Positions 772-12,917 of a stretch of DNA of 64,000 bases are shown one piece after another. Position 1 is the stretch's first letter; the number at the start of each line of letters is the position of its first letter. A program made the translations under genes and the position numbers. The notes under the pieces are model-generated. The model had not been told where the DNA came from and made no database searches. It worked only from the letters and a program-made list of their open reading frames with translations. Source of the DNA: Rhodospirillaceae bacterium (GTDB taxonomy: Bacteria > Pseudomonadota > Alphaproteobacteria > SHVP01); assembly GCA_002722055.1 (NCBI GenBank), contig PBKD01000014.1:483230-547229 (forward strand), in the 5' to 3' direction.

Positions 772-3327
772 TTATAGGCTTCGAGCAATTTCTTCTGTTT
801 CAAAAATTTCTAATAAATCACCTTTTTGAACATCCTGATAATTAGCTATTCCAATTCCACAATCTGAACCAGATTTTACCTCTTTAGCATCATCTTTAAA
901 ATGCTTTAGTGTCTCAATTGTACTTTCATAAATTACTATCTCATCTCTTAATAATCTAACTTTAGCATTTCTTCTAGCTAATCCATCAATTACTTCACAA
1001 CCTGCAACTTTACCAACCTTAGAGACAGAAAAAACTTCTTTGACTCTGGCTTGCCCAAGCATATTCTCTTTTATTGTTGGGTCTAGCATTCCTGACATAA
1101 TAGATTTTATCTCATTAATTAAGTCATAAATTATTGAATAATATCTTATATCAACTCCTTCTAACTTGGCTTTTTCTCTAGCTTGCGCATTAGCCCGAAC
1201 ATTAAATCCAACTATTAATGCATTTGAGGCAAGCGCTAGAGAAACATCTGACTCATTGATTCCACCCACGGCACCGTGAACCACTCCAACAGAAACCTCA
1301 GAAGTACTTAACTTATTAATTGCACCATCTATAGCTTCTAGAGATCCATGAACATCTGTCTTTATAAGTACACTTAATACGCTAGCGTCTTCTCCTTCTT
1401 TCTTAAGAAACATTTGCTCAAGAGAGCCCTTTGATGATGCAGCTCTTGCTGCTTCATTTTTTCTTACTTCAGAAATTCTGAATGAAGAAATCTCTCTTGC
1501 ACGTGACTCATTTTCAATTACACCAAAATCATCGCCAGCTTCAGGAGTTCCGGTCAAGCCTAATATTTCAACCGGTTGTCCAGGAACAACTTCATTTATA
1601 TTTACTCCTCGATCATTTATCAACGCTCTTACTTTACCCCATTCTTTACCAGCAACAATAACATCACCAACTTTTAATCTACCTCTTTGAACTATAACTG
1701 TAGCAACAGATCCTCTACCTCTTTCTACCTTTGACTCTATAACGATACCCTCTGCAGAAAGACTGTTATTTGCTTTTAAATCCATTAATTCAGATTGTAA
1801 CAGAATTGCTTCCAGTAACTTATCGAGGCCTTGTTTTTTAGTCGCAGAGATTTCAACAGATAAAATATCTCCTCCCATATCTTCTATAAAGACTTCATGC
1901 TTTAATAAGTCTTGTTTTATCCTTTCAATATTTGCACCTTGTTTATCAATCTTATTTATAGCTACAATTAAAGGTGTTTCTGCAGACTTGGCATGTTTAA
2001 TAGCTTCTATTGTTTGAGGCATAACACCATCATCAGCTGCAACTACAAGAACTACTATATCAGTTACTTTTGCCCCTCTTGCCCTCATAGAAGTAAAAGC
2101 TTCATGGCCTGGAGTATCTAGAAATGTAATTTGTTGACTACTTTGCAAATTAACTTGGTAGGCGCCTATATGCTGAGTAATACCACCAGCTTCTGACGAT
2201 GTTATCTCACTTTTTCTCAATGCATCAAGAAGTGAGGTTTTACCATGGTCAACGTGCCCCATAATTGTAACTATCGGAGGTCTAGTAACTTTTTCAGAAT
2301 CTTTATCATCTTTACCAGTTAAAAAACCGATTTCGACGTCTGACTCAGAAAACCTCTTAGGCCTATGACCAAATTCTTCAACAATTAGCTCGGCTGTATC
2401 AGCATCAATAGATTGGTTAATTGTAACCATCACTCCCATTTTCATTAATGATTTTACAACATCTGCTCCTCTTTCAGACATTCTATTAGCAAGCTCTTGA
2501 ACTGATATTGTATCAGGTATCAAAACATCACGATAAACTTTTGATCTTGTTTCTGTTAAAGACTGCTCTTTAGCTTGCCTCTTCTCTCTCTCTCTTTGCC
2601 TACGAACAGAGGCTAAGCTTCTCGTCCTTTCGGTATCATCTAAAGCTTGACTTATAGTCACTTTTCCACTTCTTCGTCGATTAACGCCTCTATTTTTAGA
2701 TACAACTTTTTTTGATTCACCTCGGCCTGATTTTTTTCTACGACTTTCATCTTCATCAAAATCTTCATTATTATTAGGTGTATCCCTTTCACCTAGTCTT
2801 CGAGCAGCTGCAGCTGCAGCTTTTTTACGAGCCTCGTCTTCTGAACGCTTTCTTTTAGACTCAACCTCTTCTCGAGCAGCTGCAGCAAGACGTTCTGCCT
2901 CTGCCTCTGCCTCCTCTTTAATTTTTATAGTTGCAACCTCTTCAGCTTTTTTACGAGCTAATTGAGAGGCTTTTTTAGAGTCTTCTAATGCCCTTGCTCT
3001 TGCTATCTTTTCATCATCTGTTAAGGCCTTGAGAACTACTCTAGCTTTACTTTCACTTTCATTTTTTGATGCTGATTTTTTGGACTCATTTTTTAAATCA
3101 ATTTTCTCAACTGGTTTTTTTTCAGCCACAGAAAAATTTGTTGCTACTCTCTTTTTTGGAGAAGCCGTAGCCCTTTTTTTCTTTTTAACTTCTACAGTTA
3201 CAGTCTTAGATCTTCCATGTGAAAAGCTCTGTCTAACCTGCCCGGATGAAGGAACAGGTTTTTTCATTTCCAACTTACCACTTCCAGATAATCTAAGAGG
3301 TTTTTTTTCTTTTGAATCTTCAGTCAT
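772..3327 (-). CDS. infB: translation initiation factor IF-2
   Basis: GTPase that places initiator fMet-tRNA on the 30S subunit and promotes subunit joining. The protein has 851 residues. The first 250 or so are a low-complexity, highly charged Lys/Arg/Glu/Ala region typical of proteobacterial IF-2, with an Ala/Glu-rich helical stretch at about 110-180. An IF2_N-type segment (about 268-320) precedes the G domain, with G1 GHVDHGKT (357-364), G3 DTPGHE (404-409) and G4 NKID (458-461). Domains II-IV follow to the C terminus. It lies 32 bp downstream of nusA with no gene between. The ATG at 3327 is used. Confidence 0.97.
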
Positions 3328-3359: not shown

Positions 3360-4955
3360 CTATAGATCAGTATTTTGATCAGAACCAGATTGATTATTTG
3401 AAACTTCATTATCATCGATTTTTTCGATTGGATCATCATCAAACCAATGAGCTCTAGCTGACATAATTATCGCATTAGCATCTTCTTCAGATAAATTTGA
3501 ATTCGGGAGAAGCTCTAATAACTCATCACTAGCTAAGTCACCTAAATCATCTAATGTTTTAATGTTATTTTCTCCTAACGTAACTAGCATTTCTGGAGAA
3601 ACCCTTTCAATTGATGCTATATCATCTTGAACACCTAATTCTCGTCTCTTATTCTCATGTTCCCTATCTTTTTCTTGAATATATTGTTCGGCTCTAATTT
3701 TTATCTCCGAAGCAACATCCATATCAAAACCTTCAATTGATGCAATCTCTTCTGCATCAACATCAATAATTTCATCTGCAGAACCAAAACCTTCCGTAAC
3801 TAAAAGTTGGGCTATGGTCTCATCAACATCAAGTATCTCAATAAACATTTGACTTCTCTGTTTAAACTCTTCTTGTCTTCTTTCAGACTCCTCTGCTTCA
3901 GTAAGAACATCAATGTCCCAGCCAGTCAATTGAGAAGCCAATCTTACGTTTTGGCCTCTTCGACCTATTGCTAAAGATAATTGATCGTCTGGTACTATTG
4001 ATTCTATTCGCCTTGCCTCCTCATCTAAAACAACTTTTGTCACTTCAGCAGGTGCAAGAGAATTAACAATAAAAGTAGCATCATCCAATGACCATTGAAT
4101 AATATCAATTTTTTCACCCTGTAATTCATTAACAACTGCTTGAACTCGGCTTCCTCTCATACCAACACAAGCACCCACAGGATCAATTGATGTATCTTGA
4201 GAGGTAACTGCTATTTTTGCTCGGCTACCTGGATCTCTTGCAACAGATTTGATTTCGATAATGCCATCATAAACTTCTGGTACTTCTTGCGAAAAAAGTT
4301 TTGCCATAAAAGTTGGGTGTGTTCTAGATAGAAAAATTTGAGGTCCCCTAGTTTCCCTTCTAACGTCATAAATATATGCTCTAACTCTGTCTCCATTCCT
4401 AAAATTTTCTCTAGGGAGCAACTCATCTCTTCTTATTACTGCCTCTGCTCTACCTAAATCAACAGTTACATTTCCATACTCAACTCTTTTAACTATTCCG
4501 TTAACAACTTCCTCAATCCTGTCTTTATACTCTTCATATTGTCTCTCTCTCTCTGCCTCACGAACTTTTTGAACAATGACTTGTTTAGCTGTTTGTGCAG
4601 CAATTCTACCAAAGTCGATTGGGGGAAGAGGCTCTGCTATTATATCACCAACTTGAGCATCGGGGTTCTGTTCTCTTGCAGTATTGATATTTATTTCTGT
4701 GGCTTCATTTTCAACTTGGTCAGAGACCTCTAAGTATCTAAAAAGTTTGATCTCGCCAGTTTTTGGATCTATTTCAGCTCGAATTTCATTATCTGCGCCA
4801 TATTTAGATCTTGCCGCTTTTTGAATTGCCTCCTCCATAGCAGATATAACCATTTCGCGTTCAATAGATTTCTCTCTGGCTACTGCATCTGCAATTTGCA
4901 ACAACTCCAAACGGTTCTGACTAGTAATTGTATGTTCAGCCGTCTGTTCTTTCAT
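3360..4955 (-). CDS. nusA: transcription termination/antitermination protein NusA
   Basis: RNA polymerase-associated factor acting in pausing, Rho-dependent termination and rRNA antitermination. Domains in order are an N-terminal RNAP-binding domain (1-135), S1 (about 150-215), two KH domains (GMRGSRVQAV at about 266-275; IGRRGQNVRL at about 331-340), then two helix-hairpin-helix acidic repeats (about 370-500) and an acidic tail. The 531-residue length is usual for alphaproteobacteria. The ATG at 4955 follows an AGAGAGA-type ribosome-binding site by about 7 nt; a GTG lies one codon upstream. The start overlaps the end of rimP by about 20 bp, implying translational coupling. Confidence 0.97.
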   Translation of the reverse strand: MKEQTAEHTITSQNRLELLQIADAVAREKSIEREMVISAMEEAIQKAARSKYGADNEIRAEIDPKTGEIKLFRYLEVSDQVENEATEININTAREQNPDAQVGDIIAEPLPPIDFGRIAAQTAKQVIVQKVREAERERQYEEYKDRIEEVVNGIVKRVEYGNVTVDLGRAEAVIRRDELLPRENFRNGDRVRAYIYDVRRETRGPQIFLSRTHPTFMAKLFSQEVPEVYDGIIEIKSVARDPGSRAKIAVTSQDTSIDPVGACVGMRGSRVQAVVNELQGEKIDIIQWSLDDATFIVNSLAPAEVTKVVLDEEARRIESIVPDDQLSLAIGRRGQNVRLASQLTGWDIDVLTEAEESERRQEEFKQRSQMFIEILDVDETIAQLLVTEGFGSADEIIDVDAEEIASIEGFDMDVASEIKIRAEQYIQEKDREHENKRRELGVQDDIASIERVSPEMLVTLGENNIKTLDDLGDLASDELLELLPNSNLSEEDANAIIMSARAHWFDDDPIEKIDDNEVSNNQSGSDQNTDL

Positions 4956-5511
4956 CACAAAATCTCTCTTTCTTTAGTTTAATAAATTCTTCATTAGCCT
5001 TTTTAGATATTTCAATTAATTCTGAATTAAGAACTAATTTTGCCTCTCGTATATTTAATCTGTCTATCTCTATAATTTCTCCAGAAACATCCAAACATAA
5101 CACATTATCTTGAATAACAATTAACTTTCCACTTAAAGATTTTTTCCCCAAAAATTTTTTACTAAATTTTAATTTAATTTGAAAACCAATAAATCTCTTA
5201 AAATCTTTTTCTGTTACCAAAGGACGATCAATGCCAGGCGAACTAACTTCTAAATTATAGTTTGAAGGCAAATAATCTAAAGTGTCTAATACTGGAGAAA
5301 GCACACGACTAATTGTAGCACAATCTTTTGCATTTACTCCACCATCACCCTGAATTAAATTCAAATATGCATCCTTATGTTCAATCATAACTTGCAATAT
5401 TGTTACCTTTCCATCTATAAAAATTTTAACACGAACAGCTCTAAAACCTTTTTGTTCTACAATTGGCATAAGCAGTTTACTTAATTTATTTATTAACAAA
5501 TCCATCTTCAT
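4936..5511 (-). CDS. rimP: ribosome maturation factor RimP
   Basis: Needed for 30S subunit maturation. The body carries the family hallmark LEVSSPGIDRPL (about 85-96), followed by the SH3-like C-terminal domain. The open frame extends upstream to a TTG at 5553, but that extension translates a perfect terminator hairpin, so the ATG at 5511 (MKMDLL) or the one at 5505 is preferred. This gives about 191 residues. The gene heads the rimP-nusA-infB-rbfA-truB operon. No Shine-Dalgarno sequence outside the hairpin precedes the start. This suggests that leader structure affects both read-through and ribosome access. Confidence 0.9.
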   Translation of the reverse strand: MKMDLLINKLSKLLMPIVEQKGFRAVRVKIFIDGKVTILQVMIEHKDAYLNLIQGDGGVNAKDCATISRVLSPVLDTLDYLPSNYNLEVSSPGIDRPLVTEKDFKRFIGFQIKLKFSKKFLGKKSLSGKLIVIQDNVLCLDVSGEIIEIDRLNIREAKLVLNSELIEISKKANEEFIKLKKERFCDERTDG

Positions 5512-5534
5512 AAAAAAAGTGGGCTTTCGCCCAC
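5512..5534 (-). terminator. intrinsic terminator / attenuator in the rimP leader
   Basis: Read on the minus strand this is a perfect 6-bp stem GTGGGC/GCCCAC closed by a GAAA tetraloop and followed at once by seven U residues. It is the most GC-rich element in its surroundings. The U-tract abuts the rimP ATG at 5511. It could terminate metK-trmB transcripts, or act as an attenuator before the rimP-nusA operon. Confidence 0.8.
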
Positions 5535-5573
5535 CTAAGTCCCAAACTACCAATTTAAATAATTCTAAAACCG

Positions 5574-5601
5574 ATAATAATTATTTAAATTTACTCTTCA
5601 A
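5574..5601 (-). promoter_or_regulatory. candidate sigma-70 promoter for the rimP-nusA-infB operon
   Basis: On the minus strand TTGAAG (5596-5601) is followed after 16 nt by TATTAT (5574-5579). It lies between the trmB stop and the rimP leader hairpin. The transcript would start near 5567 and cross the hairpin before reaching rimP. Such matches are easy to find in AT-rich DNA, so support is moderate. Confidence 0.35.
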
Positions 5602-5604
5602 GTG

Positions 5605-6321
5605 TTATAAGGGCTTAGATTTTATAAATTTGAGAAAAATTGGTGAAATTCCCCTTTTTTTTGCTTTTATTTCGTATCTTGTGTCAACCCAAGTTTTAGG
5701 TTTTAATAGCCAATCCTCGCGTCTTTGAGCCGTCCATTTAAATGAAGGATGTTTCTGAAAATGTAACAGTGTATGCCTACAATAATCTTTATCATCTGAG
5801 ACAAACCACAAAATACCATTATTTATCAGTAGTTTAGAGAATATATCAATAATTTCTTTTTGAATTATTCTTCTTTTATGATGTTTGATTTTGGGCCAAG
5901 GATCTGGAAAAAGGAGGTATATGCAATCAAAAATATTTTGTGGAAGTAGGTATAAAATTTTAGTTACATCGCCAGGAAAAAATTTAATGTTATTTATGTT
6001 TTTTTGATTAATTTTTGATGATAAAGAAGCTATTCCATTAATATATTGTTCTACTGCGAAAAAACCTTTGTTAGGGTTTTTGATAGCCTCACTAACAATA
6101 AATTCACCTGAACCAGAACCTATTTCAAGAGACAAAGGATAATATGACCTATTAAAAAAAAAATTTGAATTAATTTTATCAGCTGTAACTGAGTTTGTTT
6201 TTAAAATCTTATTTAAAACTTCATTCTTAGCCTTACTGAGTGGCCGTCCAGATTTTCTTCCTTTATAACTTAATAGCTTTTCTTGTTCCAAAAAGGAATT
6301 GTTATTAGTTGAATTGATCAA
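5605..6321 (-). CDS. trmB: tRNA (guanine-N7-)-methyltransferase TrmB
   Basis: SAM-dependent methylation of G46 in the tRNA variable loop. The 238-residue protein has the class I motif EIGSGSGEF (66-74) and the TrmB signature [14 protein letters not shown] (138-151), which carries the catalytic Asp and substrate-binding residues. The C-terminal region has the usual TRYE segment. Its start codon overlaps the metK stop by 4 bp (ATGA), so it is co-translated with metK. The pairing is common in alphaproteobacteria, and metK supplies the cofactor. Confidence 0.95.
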
Positions 6322-7484
6322 GATAAAGTAGATTTTAAATCATCTATCAAGTCAAGTTTCTCCCATGAGAAACTTCCATTCTTTTCTGGCTCACGGCCGA
6401 AATGGCCATATGCTGCAGTCTTTTTATAAATAGGCTGATTAAGCTGTAAATGTTTTCTTATACCTCTTGGGGTTAAATCCATAATTTTTTTTATTACTTC
6501 CTCAATTTTATTATCTGAGACAATACCAGTACCATACGTATCCACATAAACCGACAATGGATGTGAGACACCAATCGCGTAAGATAGTTGAATGGAACAT
6601 TTGTCTGCAAAATTAGAAGCAACAATATTTTTTGCTAAATATCTTGCTGCATAAGCTGCCGATCTATCTACCTTGGTTGGGTCTTTACCTGAAAATGCGC
6701 CCCCACCATGAGGAGCGGCACCACCGTAAGTATCAACAATAATTTTCCTACCTGTTAAACCAGCATCGCCATCTGGACCACCTATCACAAATTTTCCAGT
6801 TGGATTAACAAAGAAATTTTTTTCATTACACATCCAACCTTCAGGAAGGGCTTTGATAACATATGGCTCTACTATTGATCTTATTTCGTCTTGTGATAGC
6901 CCTTCATCGTGCTGTGTTGATAATACTATTGAGGATGCTTCAACTGGTTTACCATTTCTGTACTCTAATGTTAATTGACTTTTGGAATCAGGTTTTATGC
7001 CTTTTATTTCTCCGGAATGTCTTGCTTCTGCCAAAAGTCTAAGAATTTTATGAGAATAAAAAATCGGCGCAGGCATTAATTCTGATGTTTCCCTGCAAGC
7101 ATACCCAAACATGAGGCCTTGATCGCCAGCACCTTCATCTTTATTTCCAATTGCATCTACGCCTTGAGCAATATCAGGTGATTGATTATGCACATAAATT
7201 TCTACATTAGCATTTTTCCAATGAAAACCTTCTTGTTCATAACCTATATTTTTAACTGTATTACGAGCTATATCTTCAATTTGATTTAAAATTTGATTAG
7301 GCCCTCTTACTTCCCCAGCAAGAACAATCCTATTAGTAGTAGTTAAAGTTTCAACTCCAACCCTAGCTTCTGGTTCAGCTTCTATATATGCATCAACAAT
7401 AGCATCAGAAATTTGGTCACATATTTTATCTGGATGACCTTCTGAAACCGACTCACTCGTAAAAAAATAATCACTTCTTGACAT
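6318..7484 (-). CDS. metK: S-adenosylmethionine synthetase
   Basis: Makes SAM from methionine and ATP. The 388-residue length is standard. Motifs seen are [16 protein letters not shown] near the N terminus (about 14-29), the ATP-binding GAGDQG (118-123) and the phosphate-binding [17 protein letters not shown] (about 256-272). It is followed by trmB with a 4-bp overlap. The 96-bp upstream gap holds a GGATAAG ribosome-binding site just before the ATG. I could not fit any known SAM riboswitch to that short gap. Confidence 0.97.
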
Positions 7485-7580
7485 TACTTATCCATTAATT
7501 TTATAAAAAAAATAATACTAATATCTATCTTTTAATTATTCAATTCAATTAAAAATTATTTTTTCCGTATAAAATAAATT

Positions 7581-9155
7581 TTACTGGTTATTAAATATTT
7601 TTTTTATTGCTTGAAACAAAAAAATAGAAGAAATTAGAAATATTCCTAACGTAAAAACTAAAATATCTCCAAATCTTGAATATATAGTGCTTTGTAAATT
7701 TCCGGGTAAAAAATGATCGATTATCCCAAATTTTCCATAAGGAAGAGATTTCAATACTCGCCCATAGGAGTCAATAACAGCAGATATACCTGTATTTGAT
7801 ACTCTTATTAGCGGCAGACCTTCTTCAATTGTTCTAATTCGGGCCATTTCAAAATGTTGCTGGGGACCAGCAAAATTTCCAAACCAGGCATCATTTGATA
7901 ATGATAGCATCCATTCAGGTCTAACTTTTGAATTCACAACTTCCCCTGGGAAGATTGCTTCAAAACAAATTAAGGGACTAAATGAGGGAAAGTTATCAAA
8001 TTTTATAGTTTTAGGCCCGCCCCCTCTTGAATAGTCAATAGGCCCAAATACTATTTTACTGAATCCAAAATAATCAAACAAATTTCTAAAAGGTAAATAC
8101 TCTCCAAAAGGAACAAGATGAAATTTGTTGTATGAATCAACTATATCTAATTTCTCATTTAATATTACAACACTATTATATAATTTAAATTTTTCTGGGT
8201 TATATTCATTGAATATTATTCTTGGCATACCAGTTATCAACATAGCATCATTCCGAAGTAAATCATAAATAGAGTCTTTGTTTAATATTTCATTTATTGA
8301 TGTGTATGTTAAGGCTGTTTCTGGCCAGATAAATAAATCTATTTCATTAAAATCCTCATACTTACTTAAAGAATAATGTTTCATAAAATTTTTGTATTTT
8401 AAGCTTTCTTTCCACTTTTCGTTTTGAACTATATTTGGCTGCACTAACCTCAATTTAATATTTTTATAATGATTTATGGAGTTATCTAACTTATAAGATC
8501 CGAAAAAATGCAATGTAAACAAAATTGCTATACCTAAAATAGGTATGACTAAATTTTGTTTCTTCTTTGACCCAACTAAAGAAAATGAACATGCAAAGAA
8601 AATTGCAAAAAAAGAAAGCCCATAAATTCCTACTACTGAAGCTATTTGAGATATTGTCAAAAAATCACTAAATGTATAACCAATTAAATTCCATGGGAAA
8701 CCTGTCAAAATGTTTCCTCTAAGCCATTCAAAAAATACCCAAAATACTGGAAAAATAAATACTAGCTGAACACTATTTTTTGATAAATGTTTTGTTATGA
8801 GTGTAACAAGCCCAACAAACATTGATAAGAATGCAGGTAAAATAAATATCGCGAAAGGAATTAACCATGCATTCTCTGCAGGATCTACTAACATAGGATA
8901 GGCCATCCAATGCAAGCTAAAAACAAAAAAACCAAAACCAAAAAACCATCCTACTAAAAAAGATACCCTTAAACCATCACACCCTTTTAGCAGCCATAAT
9001 AAGCCAACAAAAGAAACGATAAGTATGGGAAAAACATTGAAAGGCGGTATAGCAGTTACCGCTAGTGAACCAAATATAAATGAAGTTACATATCGTTTAA
9101 AACCATAAGTATTTCTAAGAAAATTTTTTATATTATTTAAAATTTTAGTAAAAAT
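7581..9155 (-). CDS. lnt: apolipoprotein N-acyltransferase Lnt, probable non-canonical start
   Basis: Inner-membrane enzyme that N-acylates the lipid-modified cysteine of lipoproteins. The C-terminal nitrilase domain carries the triad regions WPETAL (Glu), PFGEYLPFR (after the Lys region) and PLICFEAIFP (Cys), followed by a last transmembrane helix. A TTG at 8915 would remove the first two membrane segments. Translating upstream in the same frame gives typical Lnt N-terminal sequence (AVTAIPPFNVFPILIVS, then WFFGFGFFVFSLHWMAYP) with no stop back to the corC UAA at 9159-9161. That 80-residue extension contains no ATG, GTG or TTG. An ATT at 9155, 8 nt after GAAAGAG, would give 524 residues, the family's normal size. 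The product is secure; the start is inferred. Confidence 0.85.
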   Translation of the reverse strand: MFTKILNNIKNFLRNTYGFKRYVTSFIFGSLAVTAIPPFNVFPILIVSFVGLLWLLKGCDGLRVSFLVGWFFGFGFFVFSLHWMAYPMLVDPAENAWLIPFAIFILPAFLSMFVGLVTLITKHLSKNSVQLVFIFPVFWVFFEWLRGNILTGFPWNLIGYTFSDFLTISQIASVVGIYGLSFFAIFFACSFSLVGSKKKQNLVIPILGIAILFTLHFFGSYKLDNSINHYKNIKLRLVQPNIVQNEKWKESLKYKNFMKHYSLSKYEDFNEIDLFIWPETALTYTSINEILNKDSIYDLLRNDAMLITGMPRIIFNEYNPEKFKLYNSVVILNEKLDIVDSYNKFHLVPFGEYLPFRNLFDYFGFSKIVFGPIDYSRGGGPKTIKFDNFPSFSPLICFEAIFPGEVVNSKVRPEWMLSLSNDAWFGNFAGPQQHFEMARIRTIEEGLPLIRVSNTGISAVIDSYGRVLKSLPYGKFGIIDHFLPGNLQSTIYSRFGDILVFTLGIFLISSIFLFQAIKKIFNNQ

Positions 9156-9158
9156 ACT

Positions 9159-10082
9159 TTAATCTCTTTCATCTTTGATTTGAGTTATTTTTCTTATAAT
9201 TAGTTTTTTTACTCTTCTTGCATCAGCTTGAGTAATTTCAAATTCAAAACCACCATTATGTGAAATTACTTCACCTCTCTGGGGGACTCTTCCAGCTAAT
9301 GATGCTACGACACCTGCAACCGTATCAATTTCTTCATCATGATGTTCCGGAAGAAAATCAGCACCTATTGATTTTTCAACATCAGCAGTTGATGCTCTTC
9401 CAGAAGCTTCAATGCTTCCATCAGACAAAATATTAAACAGAGGTTTCTCATCCTCATCGTGCTCGTCTTCTATATCTCCCACAATTGACTCCACTAAATC
9501 CTCAATTGTAACTAAGCCATCTGTACCACCATATTCATCAACAACAAGTGCCATATGAAGCCTTTTAGTTCTCATGGTTAAAAGAAGATCTGGAACTGAC
9601 ATTGATGGCGGAACAAACAATGCCTCCTTTAGGTGAGAAGATAGCTTGAAAGCCTTTCTTCTATCCCAAAATTTAACTATATCCTTTATGTGGATTACAC
9701 CAGAAACATCGTCTAAATTATCTTTGTAAACGGGCATTCTTGAATGAGATTCTTTTTGGAATGCCTTAATTATTTTATCTATTGAGCTTGATAAGCATAC
9801 GGCAACTATGTCAGCTCTTGGTATCATTACATCATTAACTTTTAAATCACCGAAAGACAGAAGGTTTCTTAATAATAATTTAGACTCTTCATCTAACTCA
9901 CCCTGCTCCTCTTCATGCTGTTCTATAAGATTTTTTAAATTATTTGAATTTGTAATATCTTCATTTTTTAAAAAGCCAAAATTTAAAAGTCGCTCAACTA
10001 AAGTTTTTTTTAGCTGAAACGAGTTTGATGAGTTACTATCAGTATTGGTGTTATTTTTTTTATTTAAATTATTCTCTTTCAT
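9159..10082 (-). CDS. corC: CBS-pair/CorC-HlyC domain protein (CorC family)
   Basis: Cytosolic hemolysin-like/CorC protein linked to cation (Mg/Co) homeostasis. The 307-residue protein has a variable acidic N terminus, a conserved segment with VNDVMIPRADIVAV (about 85-98), two CBS motifs covering about 100-225 (HSRMPVYKDNLDDVSGVI; MALVVDEYGGTDGLVT) and a C-terminal CorC_HlyC transporter-associated domain (about 240-305). It lacks the DUF21 membrane domain, as CorC proteins beside lnt and ybeY usually do. It sits 6 bp after ybeY. Its UAA stop is directly contiguous and in frame with the lnt reading frame. Confidence 0.92.
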   Translation of the reverse strand: MKENNLNKKNNTNTDSNSSNSFQLKKTLVERLLNFGFLKNEDITNSNNLKNLIEQHEEEQGELDEESKLLLRNLLSFGDLKVNDVMIPRADIVAVCLSSSIDKIIKAFQKESHSRMPVYKDNLDDVSGVIHIKDIVKFWDRRKAFKLSSHLKEALFVPPSMSVPDLLLTMRTKRLHMALVVDEYGGTDGLVTIEDLVESIVGDIEDEHDEDEKPLFNILSDGSIEASGRASTADVEKSIGADFLPEHHDEEIDTVAGVVASLAGRVPQRGEVISHNGGFEFEITQADARRVKKLIIRKITQIKDERD

Positions 10083-10088
10083 AAATAT

Positions 10089-10583
10089 TTAATCAATTAA
10101 CTCAGTACTATATGGGTTTTTATAACCCAAGATGCCTAGTACCTTTATTTCAATTCCCTCCATAACTTTAGAATCTATTTTATTTTTATGACTATAACCT
10201 ATTAGGTGAAGTAAGCCATGTATTATAAGATGAATTAAATGCGCACTTAAAGTTTTTTTTTGTTCACATGATTCTTTATGTACACTCTCATAACCTATAG
10301 CAATATCTCCGATATATCTCCTATTATATTTAAACAAAAGATCGGAGTCTTTTTCTTGAGAAAATGCTAAAACATTGGTTGGGCTTGGCTTTCCTCTATA
10401 TTTATGATTCAATTCTTTCATTTCCAAGTCTGAAGTTAGTCTAATAGACAACTCTATATCTTCGTCTATTTCTATTACACTAATAGTTTTAATTACAGCT
10501 AGTTTCACATTAGAAGCTAATTCAGGTTCTATATTATGCCAATTTTTGTAGTCGATAATAATATTTACATCAGGACTGGCCAA
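10089..10583 (-). CDS. ybeY: endoribonuclease/rRNA maturation factor YbeY
   Basis: Zinc-dependent single-strand endoribonuclease acting in 16S rRNA 3'-end maturation and ribosome quality control. The H-x3-H-x5-H zinc signature is clear (HLIIHGLLHLIGYSH). The open frame extends upstream to a TTG at 10640, overlapping phoH by 41 bp. A TTG at 10583, preceded by an AAGG ribosome-binding site and lying just after the phoH stop, gives 164 residues and matches the family's usual 150-165, so I prefer it. It lies in the phoH-ybeY-corC-lnt order found across proteobacteria. Confidence 0.92.
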   Translation of the reverse strand: MASPDVNIIIDYKNWHNIEPELASNVKLAVIKTISVIEIDEDIELSIRLTSDLEMKELNHKYRGKPSPTNVLAFSQEKDSDLLFKYNRRYIGDIAIGYESVHKESCEQKKTLSAHLIHLIIHGLLHLIGYSHKNKIDSKVMEGIEIKVLGILGYKNPYSTELID

Positions 10584-10599
10584 ATTAACCTTATTACTT

Positions 10600-11544
10600 T
10601 CATTGGTTTTGAGTTTTGTCACTATTTTCGTAGGCCTCAACCATTTTTATAACTAATTGATTTCTTACAACATCTTTACTATTAAATCTAATAAAAGCTA
10701 TATCTTCAATATTATTTAATATTTCTGTTGCTTGCTTCAAACCTGATAATTGATTATTACTCAGATCAATTTGAGATAAATCTCCTGTTACTACCATCTT
10801 TGAGTTTTCACCTATCCTTGTAAGTATCATCTTCATTTGCATAGGTGTAGTATTTTGCGCCTCATCTACAATAATATAGGCATTAGCAAGGGTTCTGCCT
10901 CGCATAAATGCAAGTGGTGCGACTTCTATTTCACCACTTTCTAACTTTCTAAAAACTATCTCTGCAGGAAGCATATCGTATAGCGCATCATATAGTGGCC
11001 TAAGATATGGATCAACTTTATCCTTTAAATCCCCAGGTAAAAAACCAAGCCTCTCCCCAGCCTCTACTGCTGGACGAGATAGAATTATTCTATCGACTTC
11101 ACTATTTAATAATGATTGAACTGCTGCCGCAACTGCTAAATATGTTTTGCCTGTGCCTGCTGGTCCAATTGCGAAAACTAAAGAATTTTCTTTCATCAGA
11201 TTAAGGTAAGATTTTTGGTTCAATGACCTAGCAATAATTTTTCTTTTAGATGTATTTATATAAACAGGACCACTATCATAATTTTCTTTTTTACCATTTA
11301 TCATTTTCAACTCACCTTCGACATCACCTAAACTAATTTCTGAACCATCCTTTAATCTTCTGTATAAATTTTTGAGAATTAAACCTACATTTTTACAATT
11401 TTTTGATTCTCCAAATATTTCTATATGATTACCTCTATAATTGATCTTGGTATCAGTATTTTTTTCTAACAATATAAGGTGTTCATCCTCTCTACCATAT
11501 AGCGCTGGAAGTAATGAGTTATCGTCAAAAGTAAATGAAAGCAT
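10600..11544 (-). CDS. ybeZ: PhoH-like P-loop ATPase (YbeZ type)
   Basis: Cytosolic ATPase/putative helicase that works with YbeY in RNA metabolism. The 314-residue protein has Walker A GPAGTGKT (127-134), Walker B YIIVDEAQN and the following TRIGENSKMVVTGD segment typical of PhoH. A KH-like N-terminal region (about 30-90) precedes the ATPase domain. It lies between miaB and ybeY in the conserved miaB-ybeZ-ybeY-corC-lnt order. The often used name PhoH reflects homology to the phosphate-starvation protein; no phosphate regulation is visible here. Confidence 0.93.
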   Translation of the reverse strand: MLSFTFDDNSLLPALYGREDEHLILLEKNTDTKINYRGNHIEIFGESKNCKNVGLILKNLYRRLKDGSEISLGDVEGELKMINGKKENYDSGPVYINTSKRKIIARSLNQKSYLNLMKENSLVFAIGPAGTGKTYLAVAAAVQSLLNSEVDRIILSRPAVEAGERLGFLPGDLKDKVDPYLRPLYDALYDMLPAEIVFRKLESGEIEVAPLAFMRGRTLANAYIIVDEAQNTTPMQMKMILTRIGENSKMVVTGDLSQIDLSNNQLSGLKQATEILNNIEDIAFIRFNSKDVVRNQLVIKMVEAYENSDKTQNQ

Positions 11545-11579
11545 AATGAAATTATATAATTATTATTTTTTCCAAACAA

Positions 11580-12917
11580 TTAATTTATCGAACGTGCTTT
11601 TAAACAATTACTTTCAACACTTTCAACAAACACATTAAATGTTTGCCCAATAAGACTTTTACTACATTTAATTTTAACCGGCTGTAAATATTCCGACTTT
11701 CCTATGAATTCATCACCAGAAGAAGAAACTTTTTCAAGCAAGATATTTAATTTTTTCCCAACAAAAGAGACATTAAATCTTGTTCTCTCACGATTGAGAA
11801 TTTTTTGGAGCTCATAAAGTCTATTTTTTTTGATCTCATCAGAAATTTGATTATTTCTTAAAGAAGCAGGCGTTCCAGGTCTTGGGCTAAAAATAAATGA
11901 AAATGACTGAGAAAATTTTACCTCTTCTACTAAATTAATAGTGCTTTGAAAATCATTTTCTGTTTCACCTGGGTATCCAACTATAAAATCACTTGAGAAA
12001 GAAATTTCAGGTCTCACAACTTTTAATGAGTCAATAATCTTTTTATAATCCTCGATATTATGTCCCCTATTCATATCTTTGAGTATTTTATCTGATCCAG
12101 ATTGCACCGGAAGATGAATAAGTGGCATTAGTTTTTTTTGATACCCAAAAAGATCAATTAAGTTTTTTTTCATATCCCTTGGATGAGATGTTGTAAATCT
12201 AATTCTATCTAAATTTTCAATTTCAGCAATTCGATTAATTACATAATCTAAGCCAACCTCTTTACCATTATTTGCTTGACCGTGATATGCATTAACATTT
12301 TGACCTAGCAAGGTAATTTCTTTCACACCACTAGAGACTAAAACTTTTGCCTCGGCAACTATTTCTTCGACAGATCGTGAGTATTCCGAACCTCTTGTAT
12401 ATGGAACCACACAAAATGTACAAAATTTGTCACAACCCTCTTGCACTGTTAGAAAAGAGGATAATTGTTTTTTATTTAAATTATCTTGAGGAATTAGATT
12501 GAACTTTTCCTCCAGTGGAAAAGAAATATCTATTTCTGCTTTATCAAATTCATCTACTTTTTTCAATAAATCTGGGATCTTATGGTAAGTTTGAGGTCCA
12601 ACCACTATATCGACAAAGGGAGCACGCTTTAATATTTCATCACCCTCAGCTTGAGCAACACATCCTGCAACAACTATAGACATCTTTTCGCCAGCTGATT
12701 TTTTTTTTGCTTTAATTTTTCTTAGTCTTCCAAGATCTGAGTATACTTTCTCACCTGCTTTCTCACGGATATGGCATGTATTCAGAATAACTAAATCAGC
12801 ATCACTAGGGTTATCAATTGACGAATATCCGCTTTTACTCAAAATTTCTAACATTTTATCTGAGTCGTATACGTTCATTTGACAACCAAAGGTTTTTATA
12901 AATATATTTTTATTCAA
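11580..12917 (-). CDS. miaB: tRNA-2-methylthio-N6-isopentenyladenosine37 synthase MiaB
   Basis: Radical-SAM methylthiotransferase that modifies i6A37 of tRNAs. The N-terminal UPF0004 domain has the three auxiliary-cluster cysteines at about 12, 48 and 85 (FGCQMN, NTCHIREKA, VAGCVAQ). The radical-SAM cluster CDKFCTFC has Cys162, 166 and 169. A C-terminal TRAM domain (about 370-440) completes the protein. The length of 445 is typical. It belongs to the long co-directional housekeeping series and lies downstream of plsC. Confidence 0.96.
   Translation of the reverse strand: MNKNIFIKTFGCQMNVYDSDKMLEILSKSGYSSIDNPSDADLVILNTCHIREKAGEKVYSDLGRLRKIKAKKKSAGEKMSIVVAGCVAQAEGDEILKRAPFVDIVVGPQTYHKIPDLLKKVDEFDKAEIDISFPLEEKFNLIPQDNLNKKQLSSFLTVQEGCDKFCTFCVVPYTRGSEYSRSVEEIVAEAKVLVSSGVKEITLLGQNVNAYHGQANNGKEVGLDYVINRIAEIENLDRIRFTTSHPRDMKKNLIDLFGYQKKLMPLIHLPVQSGSDKILKDMNRGHNIEDYKKIIDSLKVVRPEISFSSDFIVGYPGETENDFQSTINLVEEVKFSQSFSFIFSPRPGTPASLRNNQISDEIKKNRLYELQKILNRERTRFNVSFVGKKLNILLEKVSSSGDEFIGKSEYLQPVKIKCSKSLIGQTFNVFVESVESNCLKARSIN

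Follow-up and report, generated by a model that had tools for sequence, protein, structure and literature searches.

A probable rimP-leader attenuator packed against the rimP start in an alphaproteobacterial rimP-nusA-infB cluster

The rimP-leader was the most ubiquitous attenuator in the survey of Naville and Gautheret (2010; PMC2965389), whose account of the element describes a GGGc...gCCC stem followed by a U-tract and places it in Firmicutes, Gammaproteobacteria and "the majority of species". The same account proposes NusA as the effector, based on the conservation of the stem and on older E. coli data. For the E. coli operon, two terminators are described upstream of rimP, and NusA is said there to contribute to the regulation of its own expression (PMC6511841). 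In B. subtilis, the nusA leader is reported in a 2025 review to undergo NusA-stimulated termination upstream of the NusA gene (PMC12288461). A search of the alphaproteobacterial and Caulobacter literature on rimP returned nothing evidently related (one review appeared unrelated by its title), and rimP and nusA are absent from the main text of Meyer et al. 2009 on Pelagibacter (PMC2704228).

Here we describe a hairpin of this type in the window, that is, the whole 64,000-nucleotide stretch of Rhodospirillaceae DNA that was analysed. The hairpin reads AGGUGGGC-GAAA-GCCCACUU with further U residues behind it, and it lies ahead of rimP-nusA-infB (Table 1). Its core is composed of GTGGGC (5534-5529), GAAA (5528-5525), GCCCAC (5524-5519) and T7 (5518-5512), followed by an ATG at 5511-5509, all on the minus strand; the stem with seven U residues directly ahead of rimP, as given in a preliminary description of the locus, is thereby confirmed. 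Adding the pairs G5535 with T5518 and A5536 with T5517 extends the stem to eight pairs.

Table 1. Features of the rimP region, in positions of the window
Feature	Coordinates	Strand	Description
infB (IF-2)	772..3327	minus	downstream, in the same cluster as rimP-nusA; presumed name, from the translation and gene order
nusA	3360..4958	minus	product is the candidate feedback effector; GTG start as mechanically listed; NusA_N, S1, KH_5
rimP	4936..5505	minus	start is the ATG common to the genus, alternative ATG at 5511; RimP_N, DUF150_C
rimP-leader hairpin and T-tract	5512..5536	minus	AGGTGGGC-GAAA-GCCCACTT; basis: fold, alignment, pairing, model R1
promoter-like TTGAAG-N16-TATTAT	5574..5601	minus	between trmB stop and hairpin; family-conserved pattern
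trmB	5605..6321	minus	upstream, co-directional; Methyltransf_4

The predicted fold has an energy of -13.7 kcal/mol (z -3.9; shuffled mean -4.7), which was equalled by none of 200 dinucleotide shuffles. The genome of 2,156,134 bases (2.16 Mb) has a single occurrence of the pattern GGGCN4GCCCN2T5 and none of its reversed control. A terminator scan of 12 kb returned six sites against 4.9 expected in shuffles, and the rimP-leader hairpin was the only one of the six with five G-C pairs. As terminator-like sites are not in excess as a class, a match of this kind carries little weight as such, and the evidential weight lies in conservation rather than in the local scan.

To assess conservation, 60 genomes were searched for RimP (the one containing the window, two others of the genus, seven further members of the family and 50 of the class), and 52 had it. 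With a fixed detector, whose core pattern was written after these sequences had been seen, the canonical hairpin was present in 35 of 50 same-class stretches upstream of rimP, against 0.11 expected in dinucleotide shuffles. The alignment of these 35 rows has GUGGG or a close variant as the 5' arm throughout. Pairing holds in 97.8% of its cells, and changes on both sides occur at four pairs, figures of which neither was reached in 500 shuffles, although the preselection of the rows for stem formation favours this result; slid versions of the alignment paired in 33 to 62% of cells.

A model built from the 35 canonical rows (R1) scored the hairpin, itself a training row, at 35.1 bits, compared with 13.1 bits for the runner-up in the window. 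At E <=0.05, R1 matched upstream of rimP in 40 of the 50 same-class loci first examined (five of them outside the training set) and in one of two same-class loci added later, giving 41 of 52 in total, 35 being training rows and six not. The 11 same-class loci with no R1 match at E 0.05 were L007, L021, L023, L052, L054, L055, L061-L064 and L097. One of these (L007, genome G004) belongs to the window's family, the contig of L052 ends 139 nt upstream, and L023 and L054 have weaker matches above the cut-off (E 0.48 and 0.16, respectively). R1 also matched just upstream of rimP in all seven non-training loci drawn from a contig scan (E 6e-7 to 0.033), on contigs labelled Alphaproteobacteria, bacterium, Nitrospirota, Deltaproteobacteria and, in three cases, Elusimicrobia, whereas the E. 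coli rimP leader hairpin matched it weakly (13.8 bits, E 0.44). The stem and U-tract before rimP are thus conserved in relatives, and the preliminary reading of the locus as an attenuator withstood this check. Most of the sampled same-class genomes have, ahead of rimP, a terminator-like leader of conserved sequence that is the same as the one described in other bacteria. Conservation of sequence across lineages is likewise a property of the published rimP-leader, as the survey presents it (PMC2965389).

In the three Elusimicrobia leaders (L035:1438-1471, L037:1433-1466 and L036:1459-1492) the hairpin is near-identical with a loop of 8 nt, GGTGGCTGAAGTTCAGGCCGC, and seems to be a form particular to that lineage.

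R1 lacks specificity for rimP. Among the matches listed for each genome, down to about E 0.02, and read by eye, the rimP leader ranked first genome-wide in 32 of the 52 genomes with rimP, 31 of these 32 being in the training set. Another listed place outscored it in 13 of the 52, with the leader listed lower in six of those 13; in two the places of the matches lay outside the listing, and in five of the 52 there was no R1 match anywhere at E 0.05. In a phylum sample, 119 of 150 genomes had an R1 match at E 0.01. Ten of 30 phylum loci examined had rimP adjoining the match (two of them from training genomes) and RimP was undetected in the other 20, so that R1 evidently picks up ordinary terminators too. 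The window's own genome has four R1 matches at E 0.05, of which the three listed are the rimP leader, L099 (28.5 bits) and L100 (24.5 bits), the last being a stretch inside a reading frame. A regulon of rimP-leader elements was considered and set aside, there being no second leader-like site among these three. L099, the second-best listed match (~1031-1065 of that locus; C7:108530-108564 in the genome), is an ordinary-looking terminator, GCGGGCGA-TTTTA-TCGCCCGC-T9, between convergent reading frames.

The hairpin resembles the rimP-leader of the survey (PMC2965389) in several respects. GGTGGGC-GAAA-GCCCAC corresponds to the GGGc...gCCC stem, with a G-rich 5' arm and a C-rich 3' arm, and a stretch of U, here T7, comes right after it. 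Both elements stand directly ahead of rimP-nusA-infB with no visible antiterminator; in the predicted fold of the present leader none could be seen. The distance to the gene start, given in the survey as 4-130 nt, is here 6 nt for a start at 5505 or 0 nt for a start at 5511. Judged by its sequence features, which match, the element is an ordinary member of the published rimP-leader kind, and its sole oddity is the tight packing against the start. The B. subtilis nusA leader, as the review outlines it (PMC12288461), shares with it a leader terminator upstream of nusA; control by NusA is reported for that system and would apply to this one by analogy.

With the gammaproteobacterial rimP leader of Rfam (RF01770) the element shares the type of terminal hairpin. 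The E. coli K-12 form, the positive control, scored 102 bits (gathering threshold, 47 bits); at its end is a hairpin of the GGGC..GCCC type followed by T7, 17 nt ahead of the annotated start of rimP. RF01770 differs in being a longer gammaproteobacterial form, with 102 positions and an additional upstream hairpin. It gave nothing over 47 bits in the window or the genome and did not appear in the region even at E 10. Across the window's own genome at up to E 10 it gave seven sub-threshold places, none of them at rimP (150 of 308 candidates scored). No Rfam family reached its cut-off within the window, and the region's eight low-scoring matches at E 10 or better, the L20 leader and MCS4 among them, lie far under their thresholds and were taken as chance.

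We consider it likely that the element is a rimP-leader transcription attenuator, with negative feedback by NusA as the most likely form of control. RNA polymerase using a promoter just behind trmB would transcribe a leader of ~30 nt and then meet the GGUGGGC-GAAA-GCCCAC-U7 terminator. In vivo, some polymerases would stop at the U-tract and the remainder would read through into rimP-nusA-infB. NusA, encoded by the second gene of the cluster, would strengthen hairpin-dependent pausing and termination and so limit its own synthesis, a dependence that we extrapolate from B. subtilis and E. coli. Readthrough from metK-trmB would run into the same terminator.

The candidate promoter is a TTGA..-N16-TATTAT-like pair (N17 in L007), a pattern composed post hoc after the family sequences had been viewed, which all ten family loci have between trmB and the hairpin, against 0.08 expected. 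Its distance to the hairpin core downstream is 65 to 81 nt in these loci, and the spacers are mostly unlike. Outside the family the pattern was found in just 2 of 38 loci (0.23 expected), and the promoter is therefore proposed for the window's family only; a promoter scan of 12 kb overall gave no excess (50 found, 49.0 expected). From the usual distance to such a pair, the transcript start might be guessed to lie at ~5567.

An alternative is that the hairpin simply terminates metK-trmB transcription and abuts rimP by chance, rimP being transcribed via readthrough or from elsewhere. It does sit in a 93-nt gap behind trmB, which runs in the same direction and has its stop at 5605, and many of the examined loci likewise have a TrmB of the same orientation ahead of rimP. 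Against this, the interval from U-tract to start is too short for a promoter, and no TrmB was detected ahead of rimP in 15 of the 35 loci with the canonical hairpin (L010, L024-L026, L045, L047-L051, L053, L056 and L058-L060), in 11 of which only ~700 nt were available for the search. Moreover, the upstream gene is divergent in three loci that all have the hairpin: L059, where it encodes a Tim44 domain, and L035 and L037, where it is an MFS gene. In these three the hairpin cannot serve the upstream gene, which argues that it goes with rimP and not with metK-trmB. Such divergent-gene loci help to tell attenuation from simple upstream termination, and we regard the latter as improbable. L058 was not counted as a further divergent case, as the reading frame upstream of its rimP matches no Pfam family.

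The U-tract had been described as ending exactly at the rimP ATG, and this holds for the ATG at 5511; in the same frame a second ATG follows at 5505, 6 nt beyond the U-tract. Congener G001 keeps both. Congener G002 retains the second ATG but has GTG in place of the first, with an in-frame TAG after it, so that 5505 is the start common to the three genus members. Hence rimP probably starts at the second ATG, with the first as an alternative in the window's own genome. By a crude count (first-ATG starts, spurious ORFs kept in), an SD-like 4-mer precedes only 15 of the 48 window ORFs of at least 150 aa and is missing from 33 of the 48, which makes the missing Shine-Dalgarno sequence at rimP unremarkable. 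The same count speaks against an RNA thermosensor or a hairpin that masks the ribosome-binding site, readings suggested by the 5' arm, whose GGUGGG is the one SD-like sequence in the vicinity of the start. In the family members L004-L006, the GUGGGC arm is present together with a GGAG between the hairpin and the coding region, and the arm therefore need not be a masked ribosome-binding site; a thermosensor would also have no need of the conserved U-tract. Both readings seem to us very improbable. The preliminary description had offered an attenuator or a thermosensor at rimP: the former, with NusA as candidate effector, fits the conservation and the published leader, and the latter found no support.

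Attenuation might also be combined with translational control, the hairpin lying inside the ribosome footprint on the start codon and thus hindering 30S binding on readthrough transcripts as well. In the three genus members 0-6 nt separate the U-tract from the start, whereas in L004-L006 a GGAG stands between hairpin and coding region. However, this arrangement comes from three genomes of a single genus, and a ribosome starting translation may be able to open the stem; dual control is, in our estimation, unlikely. A related and equally tentative idea, which we would not favour at present, is that in this genus the rimP-leader has moved into the region of translation initiation; a 25-nt element with no separate ribosome-binding site would then be both a NusA-dependent terminator and a translational gate for rimP. 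The tight packing in the genus provides a small test case for the coupling of termination to translation initiation.

Elsewhere in the neighbourhood, a small ylxR gene is often found between nusA and infB. Here the nusA stop ends at 3360 and infB starts at 3327; the two are 32 nt apart, and ylxR would not fit. On the other side of the hairpin, the minus strand of 6318-12917 carries genes that, from their translations, we take to be miaB, a phoH-like gene, ybeY, a corC-like gene, lnt and metK, in this order.
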